Source: Ferrimicrobium acidiphilum DSM 19497
Lineage (GTDB): Bacteria; Actinomycetota; Acidimicrobiia; Acidimicrobiales; Acidimicrobiaceae
DNA length: 64,000 nucleotides
NCBI RefSeq assembly: GCF_000949255.1
Contig: NZ_JXUW01000003.1
Span: 1-64,000, forward strand
Direction: 5' to 3'
In this document: positions 5,817 to 13,786 of the stretch, one piece after another
How the letters are laid out: every line of letters begins with the position of its first letter
Numbering within the stretch: position 1 is the first letter of the stretch
Notes under the pieces: generated by a model
The model's database searches: none
What the model saw: only the letters and a program-made list of their open reading frames with translations
Told to the model about the DNA's origin: nothing
Program-made: the position numbers and the translations under genes

Positions 5817-6077
5817 TTAATCATCATCACGACACGTGTTAAGTGGTGCGAGAAACTTTGTGAATAAGTTCAGCACATCAGTTTCCTCTTTCGCCGGTTC
5901 CGTGATCCAAGCGACGATCGGTAGCGCAAGCGACGTGGTGGTTGTGTACGCCAACCGCTCTAGGTGTGCGACATAGGCCTTAAGCAAGACGACACCACGT
6001 AGTTTTACGGACACGGTCCTCTCGTCAGTAATGGACTTCGGTGGCCATGTTGGAGTGGTAAGCCCCTTGCGATCCAC
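5817..6077 (-). CDS. Short hypothetical ORF, possibly a gene remnant cut by repeat C
   Basis: An 86-codon frame on the same strand as the DUF4232-like gene, 60 bases upstream of it. Its sequence is protein-like (for example VVLLKAYVAHLERLAYTTTT then a helical tail ending in DDD). The GTG start at 6077 has no ribosome site and lies inside repeat C, which suggests the true 5' end was lost when the repeat arrived. No family recognised. Confidence 0.3.
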   Translation of the reverse strand: MDRKGLTTPTWPPKSITDERTVSVKLRGVVLLKAYVAHLERLAYTTTTSLALPIVAWITEPAKEETDVLNLFTKFLAPLNTCRDDD

Positions 6078-6180
6078 GTGAAGTGCAAGAGGATCGTGCG
6101 GAGATGAGACAAGCGCTCATAACCAAAGGTTTCACATTTTGGGAGCCCTATCGTTGCAAAGGTCGCGGGACTCAAGGGGA
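6069..6180. repeat. Dispersed repeat, copy C
   Basis: The most diverged of three copies. It keeps a block of the form GGAGATGAGACAAGCGCTCAT, CCAAAGGT about 15 bases on, and TCGTTGCAAAGGTCGCGGG near 6150. It lacks the CGAACGCTATGT end seen in A and B. It lies just before the first tRNA fragment. Confidence 0.6.
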
Positions 6181-6263
6181 CACACGTCTCGTTGGGAACA
6201 CAGCCACCTTGAGGGGTTGTTGGGTTCTTCTGCAAGTTCATAGGGTTAAAACATGCCTTGACC

Positions 6264-6307
6264 TGGTGGGCCCGGTGGGATTCGAACCCAGGACCAAGGT
6301 ATATCAA
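6264..6307 (-). other. Degenerate 3' fragment of a CAU-anticodon tRNA (unit 1)
   Basis: Read on the minus strand it gives a T-loop (GGTTCGAATCC), the acceptor 3' strand CGGGCCC and ACCA, as at 9260-9304, but with changes in the anticodon loop and a T-stem mismatch. There is no D-arm or 5' acceptor strand, so it cannot be a working tRNA. It marks the left edge of the tandemly duplicated unit. Confidence 0.7.
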
Positions 6308-6340
6308 GTGTTCACAAAGTGTCCGAGCTGGTAGTCATAG

Positions 6341-6430
6341 TATCCGAGTACGTCCCATTTTTGCAGCTCATTCAAGTCTTTTGGCAAGGGCGGTGAGACA
6401 GGCTCGGACTGGGTCGGACGTTCTCGAACA
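6341..6430. repeat. Inverted GTCCGAG-type motif block, unit 1 (degenerate)
   Basis: Left arm 6341-6357 (TATCCGAGTACGTCCCA) faces right arm 6414-6430 (TCGGACGTTCTCGAACA). The homologous block in unit 2 (9337-9428) is a cleaner inverted repeat. The 6308-6841 stretch is otherwise without a supported gene. A minus-strand frame through the block is conserved in both units, but many of the differences fall in the repeats and no domain is recognised. Confidence 0.5.
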
Positions 6431-6841
6431 CAATTGCTGGGCGAAAAGTTGGGTGAAGCGGACGTGGAGATCCTCCTAAGCATTGGTTGACCGCGTTGAT
6501 CCCAAACACTATCCACGTGTCCTCCGGCCTCAATAGATCACCTGACCATCACTGTCGTGCTTTCGAACAGCCAGTTGTGTTAGCTACACAGACTTCCATC
6601 CGACGCCAATTGCCAGTACGAGTCAGTTCGACCAGGTTCAAGCACGCTTACACGGTAACGGCTTTCGGTTCCGCCGAGTTCTAACATTACCTGAAACTCG
6701 AGACAGCATCGGGTCCCCCCAGGTAGAGCGAGATAACCTATCGAATCCTCCCGCCTATCGAGACAAACTATACTCCCAGCGTTAACACCTATTTCAATAC
6801 CCGAAGAGAGTTCTCGCAGAAGCTATCAAAGGGGGTAATCA

Positions 6842-7272
6842 ATGAAGCTTGCAACCAATTATCCGAGCCCAGGGGCAATTGGTAGCGTTTACCGGGAGCA
6901 GTGCTGCGCTTGAGTCACCGGCAACTGTGGCTTCTAGCCCAAATAGCGAGTCGTCTTCGTTTCGGATCGGGAAGTACCTGGTGACTCCTACCCCACCCTC
7001 AGCTAATTTTGACTCACTTACTACAAGCAGTACAGTCATACGTGCGAATGGATTCCCCGATGGGTCAGCTTGCACTCCTCCGGGTTGGCTTTTTGGGGCG
7101 GTCTCACATACGAAATGGGTATACCCACGGTTCACTCCCTGATAAAACCACCAGCCAGCGTCACCGTCACATCAAAGCGCCAGCTCAACAAGTGAACTGT
7201 ATTCTTCGCGCCGGGCCGGGAACCAAGACTACAACGGGGGTCAGTTCAATTCGATCGTTGCGAAGTGGAACG
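6842..7272 (+). pseudogene. G1 (eqolisin) peptidase N-terminal remnant, unit 1
   Basis: This is the N-terminal third of the same gene found nearly complete at 9818-10865: signal-peptide-like start, the stretch LRANGFP/RANGFPDGS typical of the propeptide of bacterial G1 peptidases, and the HTKWVYPRFTP segment. The frame is broken by TGA-TAA where unit 2 has CGA-TAT (about 7140). It can then be read on to QFNSIVAKWN, where similarity to unit 2 stops at 7272. Unit 2 has an amber codon where this copy keeps TCG (Ser). The copy is certainly non-functional because the catalytic core is absent. Confidence 0.75.
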
Positions 7273-7737: not shown

Positions 7738-7751
7738 CTATAGTGACACTA
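7738..7751 (+). promoter_or_regulatory. Likely leaderless promoter with overlapping palindromic operator
   Basis: A TATAGT -10-like hexamer at 7738-7743 lies seven bases before the ATG at 7751, fitting a leaderless transcript. The perfect palindrome TAGTG-A-CACTA (7741-7751) overlaps it and the first base of the gene, as expected for an operator bound by an autoregulating RHH antitoxin. I see no convincing -35 box. Confidence 0.45.
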
Positions 7752-7966
7752 TGGATACACGCACGACAACCATCCGACTTCCAGCCCCGACCGCCGAGGC
7801 GCTTGAAGTAGTCGCCAAAGCTGACAACCAGTCGGTCTCCGAGGCTGTTCGGCAAGCAGTTCTCGAACACATCCGGACACGCCGAGCTGACCCGGAGTTC
7901 CAGAAGAGCCTGGACCATCTGCTCGATTCGCAACGAGAAGTGTTCGAAAGGCTCGCCGATCTTTGA
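7751..7966 (+). CDS. Ribbon-helix-helix (CopG/Arc-type) antitoxin
   Basis: The 71-residue protein opens with a beta strand TTTIRLP, then two helices separated by the QSVSEAVRQAV stretch, the classic RHH DNA-binding fold. A charged C-terminal tail (FQKSLDHLLDSQREVFERLADL) would bind the toxin. The stop overlaps the TTG start of a Doc-like toxin remnant, so this is the antitoxin half of a phd/doc-type module. The longer upstream frame reaching back to 7310 is unlikely to be used. Because the toxin is broken, the antitoxin is probably an orphan. Confidence 0.75.
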   Translation: MDTRTTTIRLPAPTAEALEVVAKADNQSVSEAVRQAVLEHIRTRRADPEFQKSLDHLLDSQREVFERLADL

Positions 7967-8351
7967 TCAAATACTTAGGCCTGGGCGGCTACCTAGCGAT
8001 CGCCGAGTTGATCCTCGGCATCAACGGCGAGTTGCTGGCCAACGGCGTTGGGATCGGCTTAGCAGACTGAGTCCTTGCGGCACCTCAGGCATCCTTCGAC
8101 GGTATAGAGTTCTGTCCGGAGCTCGAGCGGAAGGCAGCCGTGCTGCTCGAGCACTTGGTTAAGAACCATCCGTGCCCGACGGCAACAAGCGCACGGCCCA
8201 CGCCACGACGTGGATGTTCATCACGATCAATGGCAGTACGTGAACCCTGGAGGATCCCAATGAGATCGTACCGATGATCATTCGTGTTGCGTCTGGTGAG
8301 ATCAGCACTGAGGAGCTCGCTGAGTGGATCTCCTCAAACATCAAGCAATGA
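7963..8351 (+). pseudogene. Doc/Fic-family toxin remnant
   Basis: From TTG 7963 the frame reads a Doc-like N-terminus (YLAIAELILGINGE), stops at TGA 8068-8070, and continues with APQASFDG and KAAVLLEHLVKNHP. Then a one-base frameshift near 8170 restores the Fic active-site motif as VPDGNKRTAH, preceded by HP. A further TGA (about 8240) precedes a C-terminal stretch ending at 8351. Intact Doc proteins AMPylate or phosphorylate translation factors such as EF-Tu. Two stops and a frameshift make this copy inactive. Confidence 0.75.
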
Positions 8352-8460
8352 CTCTTGCAATCCGAATTGAATCGTAAGGTCATTCGTCCTTGCTGGACTG
8401 GAGGTTGAAGGATATGATGGAGGTTGAAGTTCTTCTTCGAGCTGAAATATATAGTTCCAT

Positions 8461-8515
8461 GGGAAGCCTTCACCCTCTATTGCTCCGGCCATGGGGGTAC
8501 TGACGCGACTGGGAC
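8461..8515 (+). pseudogene. G1 peptidase C-terminal scrap, unit 1
   Basis: Aligns with the last ~55 bases of the peptidase in unit 2: the ACCTTCAC-CTCTATTG block and the GG-TACTGACGC end before the stop. It gives the right junction of the segment that replaced the peptidase core. Confidence 0.6.
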
Positions 8516-8578
8516 ATGACAGGGCTGGAACTCAGACACCTGGGGCCAGCTGACGCTAGGGATAAGTGAGGACGATCG

Positions 8579-8920
8579 GTGAACACGAAGCGACTTCTAC
8601 AACCACAAATCCTGATTGCAATCCTTCTTTCGCTGATTCTGGTGGGCGTCGTGCTCTTTGCGAATATGTCATCTGATGGACCCAACACGGGCGTCCTCTC
8701 TGTCGAAGCGATCGGTATCGTTATAACCCAGAAAGGGACGTGTGCAGAAATTGCCTCCAATCCTTTGGGCTCTGGAGTGGTTTGTACTCATGGAGTCGTT
8801 CTTGGCAGGAAGGGAGAATGCGTTACCTTTGGGCACAATAACTTTACTCCGAGGTTTACCGATCCAAAGCAAGCCCATATGTCACTCTGCAAGAGTCACG
8901 GGCTTCATGCGTCGTCTTAG
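8579..8920 (+). CDS. Small membrane-anchored four-cysteine protein, copy 1
   Basis: The 113-residue protein has a positive start (MNTKRLLQ), one hydrophobic segment at about residues 10-29, and an exported part with four Cys (55, 69, 81, 104) fit for two disulfides. It is paralogous to 10936-11295: the anchor, KGTCAE, VVCTHGVVLGRKGECVTFG and SLCKSHGLH are shared. The length difference between copies is six whole codons, so the frame has been kept under selection. GTG start with GAGG about 8 bases upstream. No known family. It follows the G1 peptidase remnant in the same unit, suggesting a link to the secreted peptidase, such as folding, anchoring or inhibition (inference). Confidence 0.65.
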   Translation: MNTKRLLQPQILIAILLSLILVGVVLFANMSSDGPNTGVLSVEAIGIVITQKGTCAEIASNPLGSGVVCTHGVVLGRKGECVTFGHNNFTPRFTDPKQAHMSLCKSHGLHASS

Positions 8921-9259
8921 TAACATCCAATGCTAGCACTCGAGAAGCTGACTCATAGCGCAACTGAAGGGAGCCCCCTAGGTCTCAGTATCAGTGAGTT
9001 CTTCAAACCGCATCAGCAGCACCTAGTCCATCCTCGAAGGTCGTCCAGTCGTGCCCGGTTGCACTATTGGATCCAACAGTTCGTATGGCTTGGTTCGACG
9101 CTGCCGGAAATCAGAGCAGACTAGTAGGGAGTGAGTATCTGAGGGTAAACGTCGCGGTAAAACTCGGACGACGCGGTGGGCGAACTCCAAACGCTCACCG
9201 ACACGATCCCCTTTGCCATGTTGTTCGTCTACTTGAATCCACAGCATATGCTCTCGTAC
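8921..9259. other. End of unit 1, no gene seen
   Basis: After the stop the sequence GAAGCT-A-TCATAGCGCAACTGAA is shared with the end of unit 2 (about 11300) and then fades. Frames between 8930 and 9259 are short and lack ribosome sites. One frame around 9165-9240 reads ELQTLTDTIPFAMLFVYLNP and may be a gene scrap. Confidence 0.4.
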
Positions 9260-9304
9260 TGGTGGGCCCGGTGGGATTCGAACCCACGACCAAGGGATTA
9301 TGAG
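9260..9304 (-). other. 3' half of a CAU-anticodon tRNA (unit 2), likely attachment-site remnant
   Basis: On the minus strand it reads the anticodon loop CTCATAA, the 3' anticodon stem, variable loop, a perfect T-arm (GTGGG-TTCGAAT-CCCAC), acceptor CGGGCCC and encoded ACCA. Nothing upstream restores the D-arm or the 5' strand, so it stops exactly at the anticodon loop, as in att sites of tyrosine-integrase elements. The sequence differs from the window's own tRNA-Met (48395-48468), so it comes from another CAU tRNA (Met or Ile2). Confidence 0.8.
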
Positions 9305-9336
9305 GTGTTCACAAAGTGTCCGAGTTGGTAGTCATA

Positions 9337-9428
9337 GTGTCCGAGTACGTCCCATTTTTGCAGCTCATTCAAGTCCTTTGGCAAGGGTAATGAGACAGGC
9401 TCGGACTGGGTGGGACGTTCTCGGACAC
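9337..9428. repeat. Inverted repeat block with several GTCCGAG motifs, unit 2
   Basis: Left arm 9337-9354 (GTGTCCGAGTACGTCCCA) is the near-perfect reverse complement of right arm 9411-9428 (TGGGACGTTCTCGGACAC). A further GTGTCCGAG lies at about 9317 and another CTCGGAC near 9400. Four motif copies in both directions right beside a tRNA 3' end resemble arm-type integrase sites; a long hairpin is the other reading. The 9429-9817 stretch holds no supported gene. Confidence 0.6.
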
Positions 9429-9817
9429 AATTGTTGGGTGAAAAGTTGGGTGAAGCGGACGTGGAGATCCCCCTATGCATTGGTTGACCGAGTTGATCCC
9501 ACTGTTCCTACCCGAATACTACCGACGTGTTCTTCGGTATCGATAAAACACCTGACCATCGCTGTCCTGCTTTCGAACAGCCAAACGCCAGAACGGGTCA
9601 GTTCTTCTAGGCTAAAGTGAGGCGATGACCGAGCAACGGCCCCCCCGGTTTCACCAAGTGTGAAGGTTACCTTAGAGCCGAGGCCGCGTCGGATCCCCAG
9701 GTAGAGCAGCGTAATCCACTATGTCTTTTCACATATCCAGACAAACTGTACTCCCAGTGTTAACATCTATCGCAACAGCAGACGACACTTCTCATAGGAG
9801 CGATTAGGGGGTCATCA

Positions 9818-10865
9818 ATGAAGTTTGCAACCATTATCCGGGGGGCTATTGGTAGCGTTCGCGGGGAGCAGTGCTGCGCTCGCGTCACCGGCGACCGTGG
9901 CTTATAGCTCGAATCCTGAGCCATCCTCGTTCCAGGTCGGGAAAGTTCTGGTAACCCCCACCCCACCCTCAGCTAACTTTGACCCACTCACTGCGAGCAA
10001 TGCAGCTCTTCGTGCCAACGGCTTTCCCGAGAGGCCCGCTGGTACTCCTCCGGGTTGGTTCATCGGGGCGGTCTCGCATACGAAATGGGTATACCCGCGG
10101 TTCACTCCCCGATATAATCACCAGCCAGCGTCACCGTCACATCAAAGCGCTAGCTCAACAAGTGAATCCAATTCTTCCAACTGGGCCGGGAACCGGGCAG
10201 GGAACGGAAGCCAATTCAATTAGATCGTCGCGAAGTGGAACGTTCCATCAGTCGGGAGCCCTGCGGGCACGAATGCATACTCCTCCATCTGGCCAGGGAT
10301 AGGATCGGGAAAGGCGAGTTCGAACCAGCTCCTACAAGCAGGCAGTGAGCAGGACATTAGCTGGCAGTATGTCCTTCATTATGGATGGGAGGCGACTACT
10401 TCCTACTACCTTTGGTGGGAGGCGTATCCGTTCAATGCCCAGCAACAGGTCAACATCGCAGTGAGTCCAGGACAGACCATCTTCGTCAACGTTGCCTACT
10501 ACGGCTCCTCGACGGCGCACTACTACATCAAGAACGAATCAACGGGAGTTGCCACCAGTTTCGATGCCTCCTTCAGTGGTGGTTTCACCGGCTTGAATGC
10601 CGAATGGATCGTAGAGCGTACCCAAGTGGGCAACAACTATCCGCCGCTAGCCGACTTTAACAACACGACCTTCAGCGACGCCAACGCGGAACAGGGAAGC
10701 ACCTGGAATGGTGTTGGAAACTGGAGCCATAATTACCTGGACATGTATGACTGGCACAACGACGATTCCGAAGTTACCGACGCCTATCCTGGACCGATAA
10801 GCTCTGGGAATACCTTCACTCTCTATTGGTCCAACTACGGGGATACTGACGCAGTAAACACATGA
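9818..10865 (+). pseudogene. G1 (eqolisin) acid glutamic peptidase, interrupted by an amber codon, unit 2
   Basis: One frame, entered from TTG 9825, covers signal sequence (LLVAFAGSSAALASP), propeptide (LRANGFPERP, HTKWVYPRF), NSSNWAGN, then the full eqolisin domain to TGA 10863-10865. The expected catalytic Gln is in NQLLQAG (codon 10335-10337) and the catalytic Glu in NAEWIVE (codon 10602-10604), about 89 residues apart; scytalidoglutamic peptidase has a comparable gap. YYLWWEAYP and LADFNNTTF also match the fold. A TAG at 10221-10223 interrupts the frame where unit 1 has TCG. ATG 9818 is one base out of frame with the signal peptide. Enzymes of this family are secreted and act at low pH. 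Probably a recent pseudogene; readthrough cannot be excluded. Confidence 0.8.
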
Positions 10866-10935
10866 CTCGACTAGAGATCAGGCACCTGCTGCAAGTTAAC
10901 GCTAGGGATTGTCAAGGGATGAGTGAGGACGATCG

Positions 10936-11295
10936 GTGAACATGAAGCGACTTCTACAACCACAAGTCTTGATCGCTATCCTTCTTTTGCTGCTTCTGGT
11001 GGGCGTCGTGATCTTTGCGAATAGGTCATCTGATAGGCCCAACACTGGCACATTCACAGTTGAAGCGATCGGGATCGTTGTGAACCAGAAAGGGACATGT
11101 GCAGAGGTTGGCCAGCCTAGTCCTTTTCTAAGAACCATAAATCGCCCTGGAGTGGTCTGCACCCATGGAGTTGTTCTTGGCAGGAAGGGAGAATGCGTGA
11201 CCTTTGGGGAAAATAACTTTACTCCGAGGTTTACCATTCCTGAGCCCGCCAAAATGTCGCTCTGTAAAAGCCACGGGCTTCACATGCCATCCTAA
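10936..11295 (+). CDS. Small membrane-anchored four-cysteine protein, copy 2
   Basis: The 119-residue paralogue of 8579-8920, with anchor at about residues 10-29 (VLIAILLLLLLVGVVIFA) and Cys at 55, 75, 87 and 110. Relative to copy 1 it has six extra codons between the first two Cys. GTG start with GAGTGAGGAC just upstream. It follows the G1 peptidase by 70 bases on the same strand, so the two are likely co-transcribed. Function unknown. Confidence 0.7.
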   Translation: MNMKRLLQPQVLIAILLLLLLVGVVIFANRSSDRPNTGTFTVEAIGIVVNQKGTCAEVGQPSPFLRTINRPGVVCTHGVVLGRKGECVTFGENNFTPRFTIPEPAKMSLCKSHGLHMPS

Positions 11296-12409
11296 ATCGG
11301 GAAGCTAATTCATAGCGCAACTGAACGAAGCTGCTTGTCGAAAACGCTGATCTCCGTTGCGCCGCATTACTTGCGATTCAGCAAGCTCAGCATACCGTAT
11401 CAGTTACACCTGCTGCATTCGCGAAGGTCGTCGTGAACCGCCCCGGACATCTTTGGAGGGCCGATTCGGTGGCTGCCGCGCCTGGGCAAGGTACGACAGC
11501 ACGCATTCGGTCGGTCGGTAGATGGTATCGATCGGAAGTCGAGGAGTGCCGAATCAGCTGTGACAGGCTATCTGGATTCAGGGGCATCGATCCATCGCAC
11601 GACGACTAGGACAGATATGGGTTGGCAACGTGGTCGACCCTACACTCTTGAAGTAGTAGAGAAAGTTGTAACACTCCGTGCGAGCAGGACGTTTTGGACG
11701 GGCATGGTGCTGTACAAACACCATACCAACGGTTGGGCATGAAAACACAGATAGGCCGAAAGAGACGACCATGTCCGTCACGGAAGCCCCTGGCGGTATG
11801 GATCATGCGTTGCTTGCAGGTCATGCGGGTTGCGGCGATGGCCAAAGGACTCGCTGCAACCCTCGTTGATAACTCTCTTCGCGGACGCTGTGTTGATCAA
11901 ACCGCTGAGCCCCTCGACATCGGCGGTGTAGTGGAGTTCCTCGGGGCATTGCTCGACGATTGCGATGGATAGCGGGTCAGAGGGCATCGGGTAGGGTTAC
12001 ACCGCTTACCCGGTCGATAGCAAACCAGCCCTCAGGGTGAAGGGACTGTTCTCGTTGCGTTCGATCAGGTTTTCCGGTGGAGTGTGGATTCATCGGTAAC
12101 TGTCTTGCCCACTGCGACCTAATGGCAACCGATGGAGCTCAAGCGGTGAACCGAGGGAATCGAGTTTCGCCTAGTGAGGATGAGCGGCGATCATGTTGGG
12201 GGTTATGCGTTCGACCGCTTATAAGGCAAGCGCAGAAGGCACCTTTCCAGTTTCCATTATCAGAGTTGGTGGTCGGTGGCGTGTCTCTCAAGAGGCGCTT
12301 CGTCGGCTCTTGGACGTGGGCAGAGGGGTCAGCAGCCAGCGGGCACTATGTCGCTAACGGCGAATACACGGACCGCGGTCAGTGTCGGTCCCCGGGCAGT
12401 AGAACTAGC
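11296..12409. other. About 1.1 kb without a supported gene
   Basis: The first ~30 bases continue unit 2 homology. After that, frames on both strands are short, overlap each other and lack ribosome sites. The 12077-12595 frame runs into the integrase antisense and is judged spurious. Short helix-like stretches near 11780-11970 may be transposase or element debris, but nothing can be named. Confidence 0.4.
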
Positions 12410-13630
12410 TCAGTCGGAGCCCATAGCCTGTCCGGCGTGTGGTTCTTTGAGATCAACATCGTTCCCAGTTCCCTTACCGAGCAGTCGACCAATATGTTCA
12501 GCTGCTCGTCTATCCTCTTCTGGCACCGAGTCGGTGTAGTGACGAGCCATGACCGCATTCGTCCACCCGAGTCGCGACTGTTTCTGCTTCTCTGAGATCA
12601 CGGCGTCGAGCGCAGTCGCCTGGAAGTGACGCAGAGAATGCAGGTGGATGTCGTCCCCAACACCCGCCAGCGTTCTTGTCCTCGTGAAAGCGTGGGAAAT
12701 AGAGTCAGGATGTGGCGGTGTCAAGCCATCCGGCCCAAAAGAGAAAACAACGGCATCGACATCGAGCGTCATATCCGCCGACTGAGCTAAGTTCTCTTGA
12801 ATCTTGCGCAGTCTAAGAAGTTCATCTAAGGTTCCCTCGTCGATCGCAACGCTTCGTATGCTCGCTCTTGTCTTTGGCGACTTCACGGTTGCGCTCCCCT
12901 TATTCGATACAATCGACTCATCGATGCGAATGGTACCGAGTATGAGATCACAATCGTTCCAGCGAATCGCACAGGCCTCGCCCCTACGCATGCCGGTGGC
13001 AACGATGATGCGAAGAATACAACTGATGCGTGGATCCAGGCTTTGGGCCCCAACAAGCAACCTCTGCACCTCATCAAGTGAAGGAGCCCTCACTGGCGTG
13101 TGAGACTCAATCGACCAACTCGGCAGCTCTGAGTCTGCAATCGGGTTGGGCAAAGCTCCACCGCTCCACTTTCGAGCCAATCGGCACGCCCGACCCAAGA
13201 CGGATCGAACCTGGCGAACCGTGGCTTCAGCCAGCCCTTTGTCCTTTAACCCACGTAGGTACTTCTCGACGTCATAGGATGACAACGAGGAGATACGCCT
13301 TCGACCAATCGAGTCTTTGATCTGGACCTTCCATAAACTCTCGTACCTACGTGTCGTGGATGGGGAGAGATCTGCCCAGCCATTGTCGCGCCAAGCAATG
13401 ATTGCGTCGTTGATGGTGGTCGTCGAGTTCCACCGCAACTCGGTCTCAACGATTGGTGCTGGCTTTGCCTCCTGCTCAGACACCAGCCGGGCAAGCTCTC
13501 GTTCGGCCTGACGTTTTGTACCGCGGAAGCGAACGTAGCGATGCTTGACCTTTCCCAGGCTGTCTCGACCCACGAACACACGCAGTTCCAAGGTGCCCGG
13601 TTGGGCCACCAGCCGCATGCTTCCTGCCAT
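12410..13630 (-). CDS. Tyrosine recombinase (phage-type integrase) of the tRNA-Lys island
   Basis: About 406 residues. N-terminal part has an arm-binding-like region (LELRVFVGRDSLGKVKHRYVRF) and a SAM-like core-binding domain (residues ~80-170). The catalytic domain shows Arg in ATGMRRGEA, the hairpin Lys near KSPKTRASIRSVAI, HSLRH, and the nucleophile Tyr in ARHYTDS. The usual LGH box reads LGW. I chose ATG 13630 because AGAGG lies about five bases upstream; a TTG at 13648 gives a six-residue extension without such a site. The gene sits about 80 bases from the 3' end of tRNA-Lys, on the side expected for an element integrated there. It should catalyse integration and excision. Confidence 0.9.
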   Translation of the reverse strand: MAGSMRLVAQPGTLELRVFVGRDSLGKVKHRYVRFRGTKRQAERELARLVSEQEAKPAPIVETELRWNSTTTINDAIIAWRDNGWADLSPSTTRRYESLWKVQIKDSIGRRRISSLSSYDVEKYLRGLKDKGLAEATVRQVRSVLGRACRLARKWSGGALPNPIADSELPSWSIESHTPVRAPSLDEVQRLLVGAQSLDPRISCILRIIVATGMRRGEACAIRWNDCDLILGTIRIDESIVSNKGSATVKSPKTRASIRSVAIDEGTLDELLRLRKIQENLAQSADMTLDVDAVVFSFGPDGLTPPHPDSISHAFTRTRTLAGVGDDIHLHSLRHFQATALDAVISEKQKQSRLGWTNAVMARHYTDSVPEEDRRAAEHIGRLLGKGTGNDVDLKEPHAGQAMGSD

Positions 13631-13654
13631 CGATTCCTCTAACTTCAAACCCCT

Positions 13655-13677
13655 TGTTGGGTTTTCTGTTGGGTTTT
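13655..13677. repeat. 11-bp direct repeat between integrase and tRNA-Lys
   Basis: TGTTGGGTTTT occurs at 13655-13665 and again at 13667-13677, 12 bases apart. An AAACCC at 13647-13652 is inverted to it. Lying between the integrase start and the tRNA 3' end, these are good candidates for integrase arm-type sites or an autoregulatory site. Confidence 0.5.
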
Positions 13678-13710
13678 AGTTTAGCGGGAAAGTAGACATA
13701 CGCTCTGAAC

Positions 13711-13786
13711 TGGTGGGCCGCCAGGGTCTCGAACCCTGCACCTTGGGATTAAAAGTCCCCTGCTCTACCGGATGAGCTAGCGGCCC
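13711..13786 (-). tRNA. tRNA-Lys(UUU)
   Basis: Full cloverleaf on the minus strand: acceptor GGGCCGC/GCGGCCC, D-arm GCTC...GAGC, anticodon loop CTTTTAA, T-arm CAGGG-TTCGAGA-CCCTG, discriminator A and encoded CCA at 13711-13713. Its 3' end faces the integrase and marks the right border of the accessory island. Confidence 0.95.

Follow-up and report, generated by a model that had tools for sequence, protein, structure and literature searches.

Small membrane-anchored four-cysteine proteins encoded behind a secreted G1 peptidase on tRNA-tail cassettes: a candidate peptidase partner family

Introduction

The first 64,000 nucleotides of contig NZ_JXUW01000003.1 of Ferrimicrobium acidiphilum DSM 19497 (this whole stretch is called the window here) hold two copies of a small gene for a predicted membrane-anchored protein with four cysteines, lying among remnants of genes for a secreted G1 (glutamic) peptidase. 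This raises the question as to whether the small protein works with the peptidase, by maturing, holding or inhibiting it, or whether it has a role of its own and sits behind the peptidase by accident. We find that the small genes form a new protein family restricted to one bacterial family, and codon analysis supports purifying selection on the small gene. With a rough probability of 0.4, we propose that the small protein, anchored in the membrane, inhibits the G1 peptidase encoded on the same cassettes or gives immunity to it; an independent role as a cassette gene is the main rival of this proposal.

A family of small anchored proteins

The two window copies are:

8579..8920, + strand: small anchored four-Cys gene, copy A (C3A of the window's own genome), 113 codons, GTG start
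10936..11295, + strand: small anchored four-Cys gene, copy B (C3B of the same genome), 119 codons, GTG start

Both open reading frames are present and coding at these coordinates, and their products start with a basic segment, MNxKRLLQPQ, followed by about 20 hydrophobic residues that form the anchor. The original prediction, made from the sequence alone, was that the two paralogues keep frame, anchor and all four Cys and differ by whole codons. This holds up: the proteins are 76-77% identical, have the four Cys in common and show a net length difference of six codons with the frame kept. The four-Cys ectodomain, where variation among the small genes is greatest, is predicted to lie outside the cytoplasm. 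Structure prediction is confident for a helix at residues 9-31 only (mean pLDDT 48.6 for the whole protein and 36.4 for the ectodomain), and the models were too poor for a fold search of the ectodomain to be made.

A protein search found seven copies in the window's own genome (G000; C and L numbers denote contigs and loci). A profile of eight sequences brought the family to 13 copies in six of the 42 genomes of the window's bacterial family and three of its eight genera, the C5 and G002 copies, each reported as two matches, being counted once. In wider draws the family was present in 4 of 397 genomes of the order and 3 of 395 genomes of the class, with every match in the window's own genus. 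A contig search returned a single locus, L024 (metagenome-assembled genome, MAG: Actinomycetes bacterium isolate TL1-3.bin61), which equals contig G005:C14 in length, carries the same gene and has a small gene 98% identical to copy B. Reading frames are intact in eight copies, namely C3A, C3B, C56, C53, C38 and C39 of G000, the G005 copy and G003_C10, the last with an open frame but an altered end in which the final residues are replaced; the other five (C5 of G000, G002, G003_C2, G023 and G062) are broken. The six intact copies outside the window start with ATG in five cases and with GTG in C39.

The family is also new as far as the libraries searched go, as had been suspected: the small proteins have no significant match in Pfam, NCBIfam, PHROGs, PDB, plasmids, phages or IMG/VR. 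The best match in the Pfam, NCBIfam and PHROG scans had E 0.015; all were weak and fell far short of the cut-off, and where a range was shown it took in the hydrophobic anchor. A PDB profile search returned 0 matches up to E 10.

Selection on the small gene

That the small gene is under selection was likewise borne out when the ratio of non-synonymous to synonymous substitution rates (dN/dS) was estimated. In a GY codon model over the eight intact copies, dN/dS is 0.447 (0.45 when rounded), with a log-likelihood (lnL) of -1376.08 vs -1388.74 at dN/dS = 1 (twice the difference, 2dlnL, 25.3). The ectodomain alone gives 0.418 (lnL -1003.47 vs -1014.83; 2dlnL 22.7), and for the anchor part alone neutrality is not rejected (lnL -290.29 vs -290.64; 2dlnL 0.69). 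By the pairwise Nei-Gojobori method, whole-gene estimates range from 0.24 to 0.56, the near-identical C3B-G005 pair being left out. All these dN/dS estimates ignore recombination, which is evident here, and the codon model was run with five codons masked in the tail of G003. In neutral simulations on the same tree, with one real copy as a stand-in for the ancestor, a mean of 1.76 of the eight copies stayed stop-free, and all eight did so in 2 of 2000 runs; this figure overstates the case, because the eight copies were chosen for being intact. The likelihood test is the stronger evidence, with the recombination caveat attached.

These figures bear directly on whether the small gene could be a useless passenger in decay, maintained solely because cassettes duplicate and recombine. 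Decay would be in keeping with the five broken copies among 13 and with the anchor part, which taken alone is consistent with neutrality; by rough arithmetic, moreover, one intact peptidase in 13 units leads one to expect about 5.6 intact small genes from their length, and the eight observed are, as a fraction, not clearly more than that. The rejection of dN/dS = 1 for both the whole gene and the ectodomain argues the other way, as does the rarity of neutral runs in which all eight copies (preselected as intact) remained stop-free, and we consider a mere passenger quite improbable.

The peptidase and the neighbourhood of the small gene

Upstream of the two window copies lie the following features:

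9818..10865, + strand: gene for a secreted G1 (PF01828) peptidase, broken by a frameshift near the start and an in-frame TAG (PF01828 7.2e-16 for the window fragment)
6842..7272, + strand: remnant of a second peptidase gene copy, N-terminal part (sequence comparison)
8460..8519, + strand: last ~60 nt of this second peptidase copy, directly before small copy A (repeats in sequence comparison)
7751..7966, + strand: ribbon-helix-helix (RHH) antitoxin-like gene, lying between these peptidase remnants (PF01402 5.5e-08)
7963..8351, + strand: Doc/Fic-like toxin gene, broken in the window (its intact relative in G003, L020, matches PF02661 at 1.5e-12)

Both the gene before copy B and its relative in L024 are eqolisins (PF01828), the solved structures matched being aspergillopepsin II and scytalidopepsin B. 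The intact relative (L024:2080-3129, 349 aa) has a start that resembles a signal peptide by eye and matches PF01828 over L024:2080-3126 at 2.6e-30 and 105.9 bits (cut-off 22.3); in L024/G005 it is followed by an intact small gene, which makes this the sole unbroken pair. In the alignment with scytalidopepsin B and aspergillopepsin II, the peptidase shows LLQAG and NAEWIVE opposite their ILQTG and NAEFIIE/NAEWIVE, the motifs that hold the catalytic Gln/Glu dyad. Such a dyad defines the G1 family, according to an excerpt of PMC3009609. The cassette peptidase forms a separate sub-lineage, to which the matches listed outside the cassettes and their remnants are 24-39% identical.

How constant is the arrangement of the two genes? 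Five of the 13 small genes follow at least ~60 codons of peptidase, which is intact in G005, broken in C3B, C39 and C53, and present as its 3' part only in C38. In all five the small gene lies 58-70 nt downstream of the peptidase end on the same strand. In the window, a consensus scan of 9600-11600 found no terminator-like or promoter-like site. The last ~10 codons of the peptidase or more are found upstream of nine of the 13 small genes, and no peptidase tail was seen upstream of the small gene in G002, C5, G003_C2 and G062. C56 has the last ~11 codons. C3A, G003_C10 and G023 have an RHH-Doc module upstream, with the last ~18-22 peptidase codons between Doc and the small gene; the three RHH-Doc stretches are 85-87% identical to that of the window, or alike in length, the G023 pair being placed by this resemblance only. 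In the window itself the module is flanked by the N-terminal part of the peptidase on one side (6842-7272) and its tail on the other (8460-8519). A MazF/PemK toxin gene lies upstream in C5 and G062 (6.7e-23 and 1.3e-23), where the small gene is broken in both, and the putative antitoxin before MazF in G062 is RHH-like by eye with no Pfam match. On G003 contig C2, the unit adjoining the broken small gene has a peptidase pro-region remnant before a MazF-like pair.

The simplest history suggested by these arrangements would be a cassette of peptidase and small gene in which most of the peptidase was later replaced by toxin-antitoxin genes. The place after the peptidase, which the original prediction regarded as fixed, is better described as ancestral, with RHH-Doc now in that position in three copies and MazF/PemK in two. 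Its description of the neighbours as broken peptidases is correct for copy B; what precedes copy A is an RHH antitoxin and a broken Doc-like gene, with the last ~60 nt of the peptidase only.

The small gene could instead be an independent cassette gene with a surface function of the mobile element, such as exclusion of phages or related elements, its place after the peptidase being accidental. It persists beside RHH-Doc (intact in copy A, and with an open frame and altered end in G003), it is intact in C56 with only those ~11 peptidase codons upstream, it is most variable in its ectodomain, and units of this kind carry several toxin-antitoxin or defence-like genes. Set against this, no copy was found on phages, plasmids or IMG/VR contigs, and copies away from a peptidase are mostly broken (5/8). 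The small gene is intact in 5/5 peptidase-adjacent copies vs 3/8 elsewhere (one-sided Fisher 56/1287 = 0.04, a post hoc value from copies that are not independent), which weakly fits a peptidase partner better than a stand-alone gene. We regard an independent role as possible, if somewhat doubtful.

The broken peptidases had also been taken as a sign that a selected small gene has outlived its neighbour. The peptidase gene itself, however, has been under stronger constraint than the small gene, with pairwise dN/dS of 0.03 for C3B-G005, 0.12 for C3B-C39, 0.09 for C39-G005 and 0.21-0.22 for C53 vs G005 and C3B; over the downstream 213 codons, C3B and G005 differ by eight synonymous changes and one non-synonymous change. 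The TAG common to C3B and C39 sits inside a 559-nt stretch without any difference between them, within which C39 and G005 differ at 35 positions, and the break is therefore recent and was spread by recombination or copying. In the small genes behind C3B and C39, 22/73, 38/89 and 26/82 aligned positions differ in successive blocks; since the peptidase tract of the same two units is identical, small genes have been exchanged between peptidase units. Because the break is recent and the peptidase more strongly constrained, the broken peptidases are no proof that the small gene outlived them, and this part of the earlier argument falls. A window peptidase long dead and outlived by the small gene was rejected on the same grounds (dN/dS 0.03-0.22 and the identical 559-nt TAG tract). 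Read-through of the TAG was set aside as well: the identical tract explains why the stop is shared, and the G005 gene is without a stop there.

The N-terminal/pro part of the peptidase also occurs alone, 76-87% identical and beside arms like those of attachment (att) sites, in L106:8691-9024 (G009, another genus) and in L107 on the reverse strand at 6843-7003 (G001); the stretches examined around these two remnants showed neither a catalytic part nor a small gene.

Proposed function

In the mobile two-gene unit, a tRNA-tail att with its arm is followed by the gene for the secreted G1 (glutamic) peptidase, then by the small gene, and finally by the right arm and a further att; such units seem to have been moved by tyrosine integrases, with recombination reshuffling them. 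The small protein, as the lineage-restricted and membrane-anchored product of the second gene, would be the partner of the peptidase and most likely a membrane-tethered inhibitor (immunity protein), which would shield the producer's own envelope, and cells that lost the peptidase, from the peptidase. Peptidase and small protein are predicted to share one compartment because both bear export or anchor signals as judged by eye. These signals, the adjacency pattern and the known small inhibitor genes beside secreted proteases together suggest inhibition or immunity.

In staphopain/staphostatin, SpeB/Spi and Bacteroides C10/Bti-Bfi, as here, the small gene lies immediately beside the secreted protease gene. 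Those pairs involve cysteine proteases, whereas here we have a glutamic peptidase, and their inhibitors are cytoplasmic or lipoproteins, whereas the small protein here has a transmembrane signal anchor. Orphan immunity genes protect the cell and persist once the toxin gene has been lost, and the small family resembles such modules in its several intact copies per genome, although toxicity of the peptidase and protection by the small protein are only presumed here. An excerpt of PMC3462683 describes the Bacteroides C10 protease inhibitors (Bti-Bfi) as predicted to be exported, some as lipoproteins, with the small gene beside that of the secreted protease, and raises the possibility of one inhibitor decaying after its protease lost activity. 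No gene-linked G1 inhibitor is named in the titles and abstract starts of the papers that a literature search on eqolisins, inhibitors and bacteria brought up; PMC11241649 deals, by its title, with secreted Aspergillus peptidases and their inhibitors.

Several results weigh against inhibition. The near-identical peptidases of C3B and C39 stand beside small proteins that are 66-69% identical, a poor fit to a one-to-one inhibitor. G000 lacks an intact cassette peptidase but keeps six of its small genes intact, which fits orphan immunity and an independent role equally. The small protein matches no known inhibitor family in Pfam or PDB, and the ectodomain models (mean pLDDT 36.4) are too poor to show a fold. 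Finally, in the window's bacterial family, 30 G1 loci outside the cassettes were scanned and no small gene was seen downstream. This zero count is crude: the 34 loci scanned (30 non-cassette) are part of all G1 matches and some stop at contig ends, known small genes were missed in L025 and L026 under the 600-nt limit because the frames there end at the TAG, and the scan motif failed to find the peptidase in L030, L055 and L067. On these 30 loci, crude as the scan is, a link of the small gene to G1 peptidases in general was rejected; of the association originally proposed, the link to the cassette G1 peptidase is what survives the homologue and neighbour search.

The same results bear on a maturation or tethering partner. 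The small protein would then be a foldase or docking protein, anchored in the membrane, without which the secreted peptidase could not be made or held. The ancestral downstream place and the membrane anchor would suit such a protein, and a membrane-anchored foldase for a secreted lipase provides a precedent (excerpt of PMC13381987). It would be hard to reconcile with the six intact small genes that G000 keeps without an intact cassette peptidase and with the scanned G1 loci elsewhere in the family that lack the small gene. In addition, a bacterial G1 peptidase, described as insensitive to four class inhibitors, was produced by expression in B. subtilis (excerpt of PMC3009609), and we hold this role to be unlikely.

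A protein family that none of the libraries searched contains is here tied to a rare class of acid proteases on mobile DNA. If the inhibitor reading is true, glutamic peptidases would have a natural inhibitor, and the toxin-antitoxin genes of related cassettes an extracellular counterpart. More speculatively, and with low expectation on our part, peptidase and small protein might form an extracellular toxin-immunity (addiction-like) pair on integron-like tRNA-tail cassettes, interchangeable with classical toxin-antitoxin modules, and the small protein might then be the first gene-linked natural G1 inhibitor.

The cassettes

The ends of the units in the window, and the integrase beyond them, are:

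6263..6504, + strand: tRNA-3'-end-like repeat with ~200-nt arm, left end of unit A (repeat comparison)
9259..9501, + strand: tRNA-3'-end-like repeat with ~200-nt arm, left end of unit B and right end of unit A (repeat comparison)
6051..6262, + strand: right-arm repeat, found ahead of the tRNA-like repeat at several cassette ends (repeat comparison)
12410..13648, - strand: tyrosine integrase (PF00589 7.9e-17)
13711..13786, - strand: tRNA-Lys (TTT), adjoining the integrase

Each unit end has a ~40-46-nt repeat that copies a tRNA 3' end and, behind it, the ~200-nt arm; repeat plus arm gives 13 matches in G000, of which three cover the repeat alone. The right-arm repeat precedes the tRNA-like repeat at four places over at least 230 nt, and the small gene ends ~230-340 nt before the next repeat in C39, C3A, G023 and G002. 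At its left end, the G005 unit has a repeat that matches the 3' end of the window tRNA-Lys over 54 nt at 96%, and the G005 contig ends inside the integrase. The window repeats at 6263 and 9259 copy another tRNA tail, akin to a complete tRNA-Met gene whose 3' end forms the corresponding boundary in G023. The units have arms in common but end in tails of different tRNAs.

With a tyrosine integrase beside tRNA-Lys and tRNA 3'-end repeats at unit boundaries, the units resemble tRNA-targeting genomic islands, integrative and mobilizable elements and tycheposons. Unlike those elements, the units here measure ~1.3-6 kb, several have no integrase in their open reading frame (ORF) lists and some are in tandem; their movement is presumed. 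Units bounded by tRNA tails, 1.3-6 kb long and with the ~200-nt arms in common, occur at window:6263-9259 and 9259-13786, L018:4150-5660, L072:6252-8211 and L073:4923-10893. They resemble an integron-like set of cassettes with toxin-antitoxin genes (RHH-Doc, MazF, DUF433/PIN-like, TacA-like), only some with an integrase ORF. Other units or their flanks hold DUF433/DUF5615, TacA-like, MNT/HepT and AAA_21/RloB-like genes, the putative TacA partner having no Pfam match. At L016:7857-9586, an AAA_21 ATPase and an RloB-like gene (RloB below cut-off) directly follow an intact small gene and precede the next att repeat.

The 412-aa integrase ORF on contig C5 (L073:9548-10786) begins almost identically to that at window:12410-13648. 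Contig C53 carries identical direct repeats of 701 nt at both ends (L015:1-701 and L015:8707-9407), common to contig C56 (L014); the piece may be flanked by repeats or circular, or the repeats may stem from the assembly. A DUF4232-type protein with a signal-like start lies beside the cassettes at window:4924-5757 (PF14016 2.7e-06), and a protein of similar look is encoded inside an att-bounded unit on contig C24 (L071:2092-2856).

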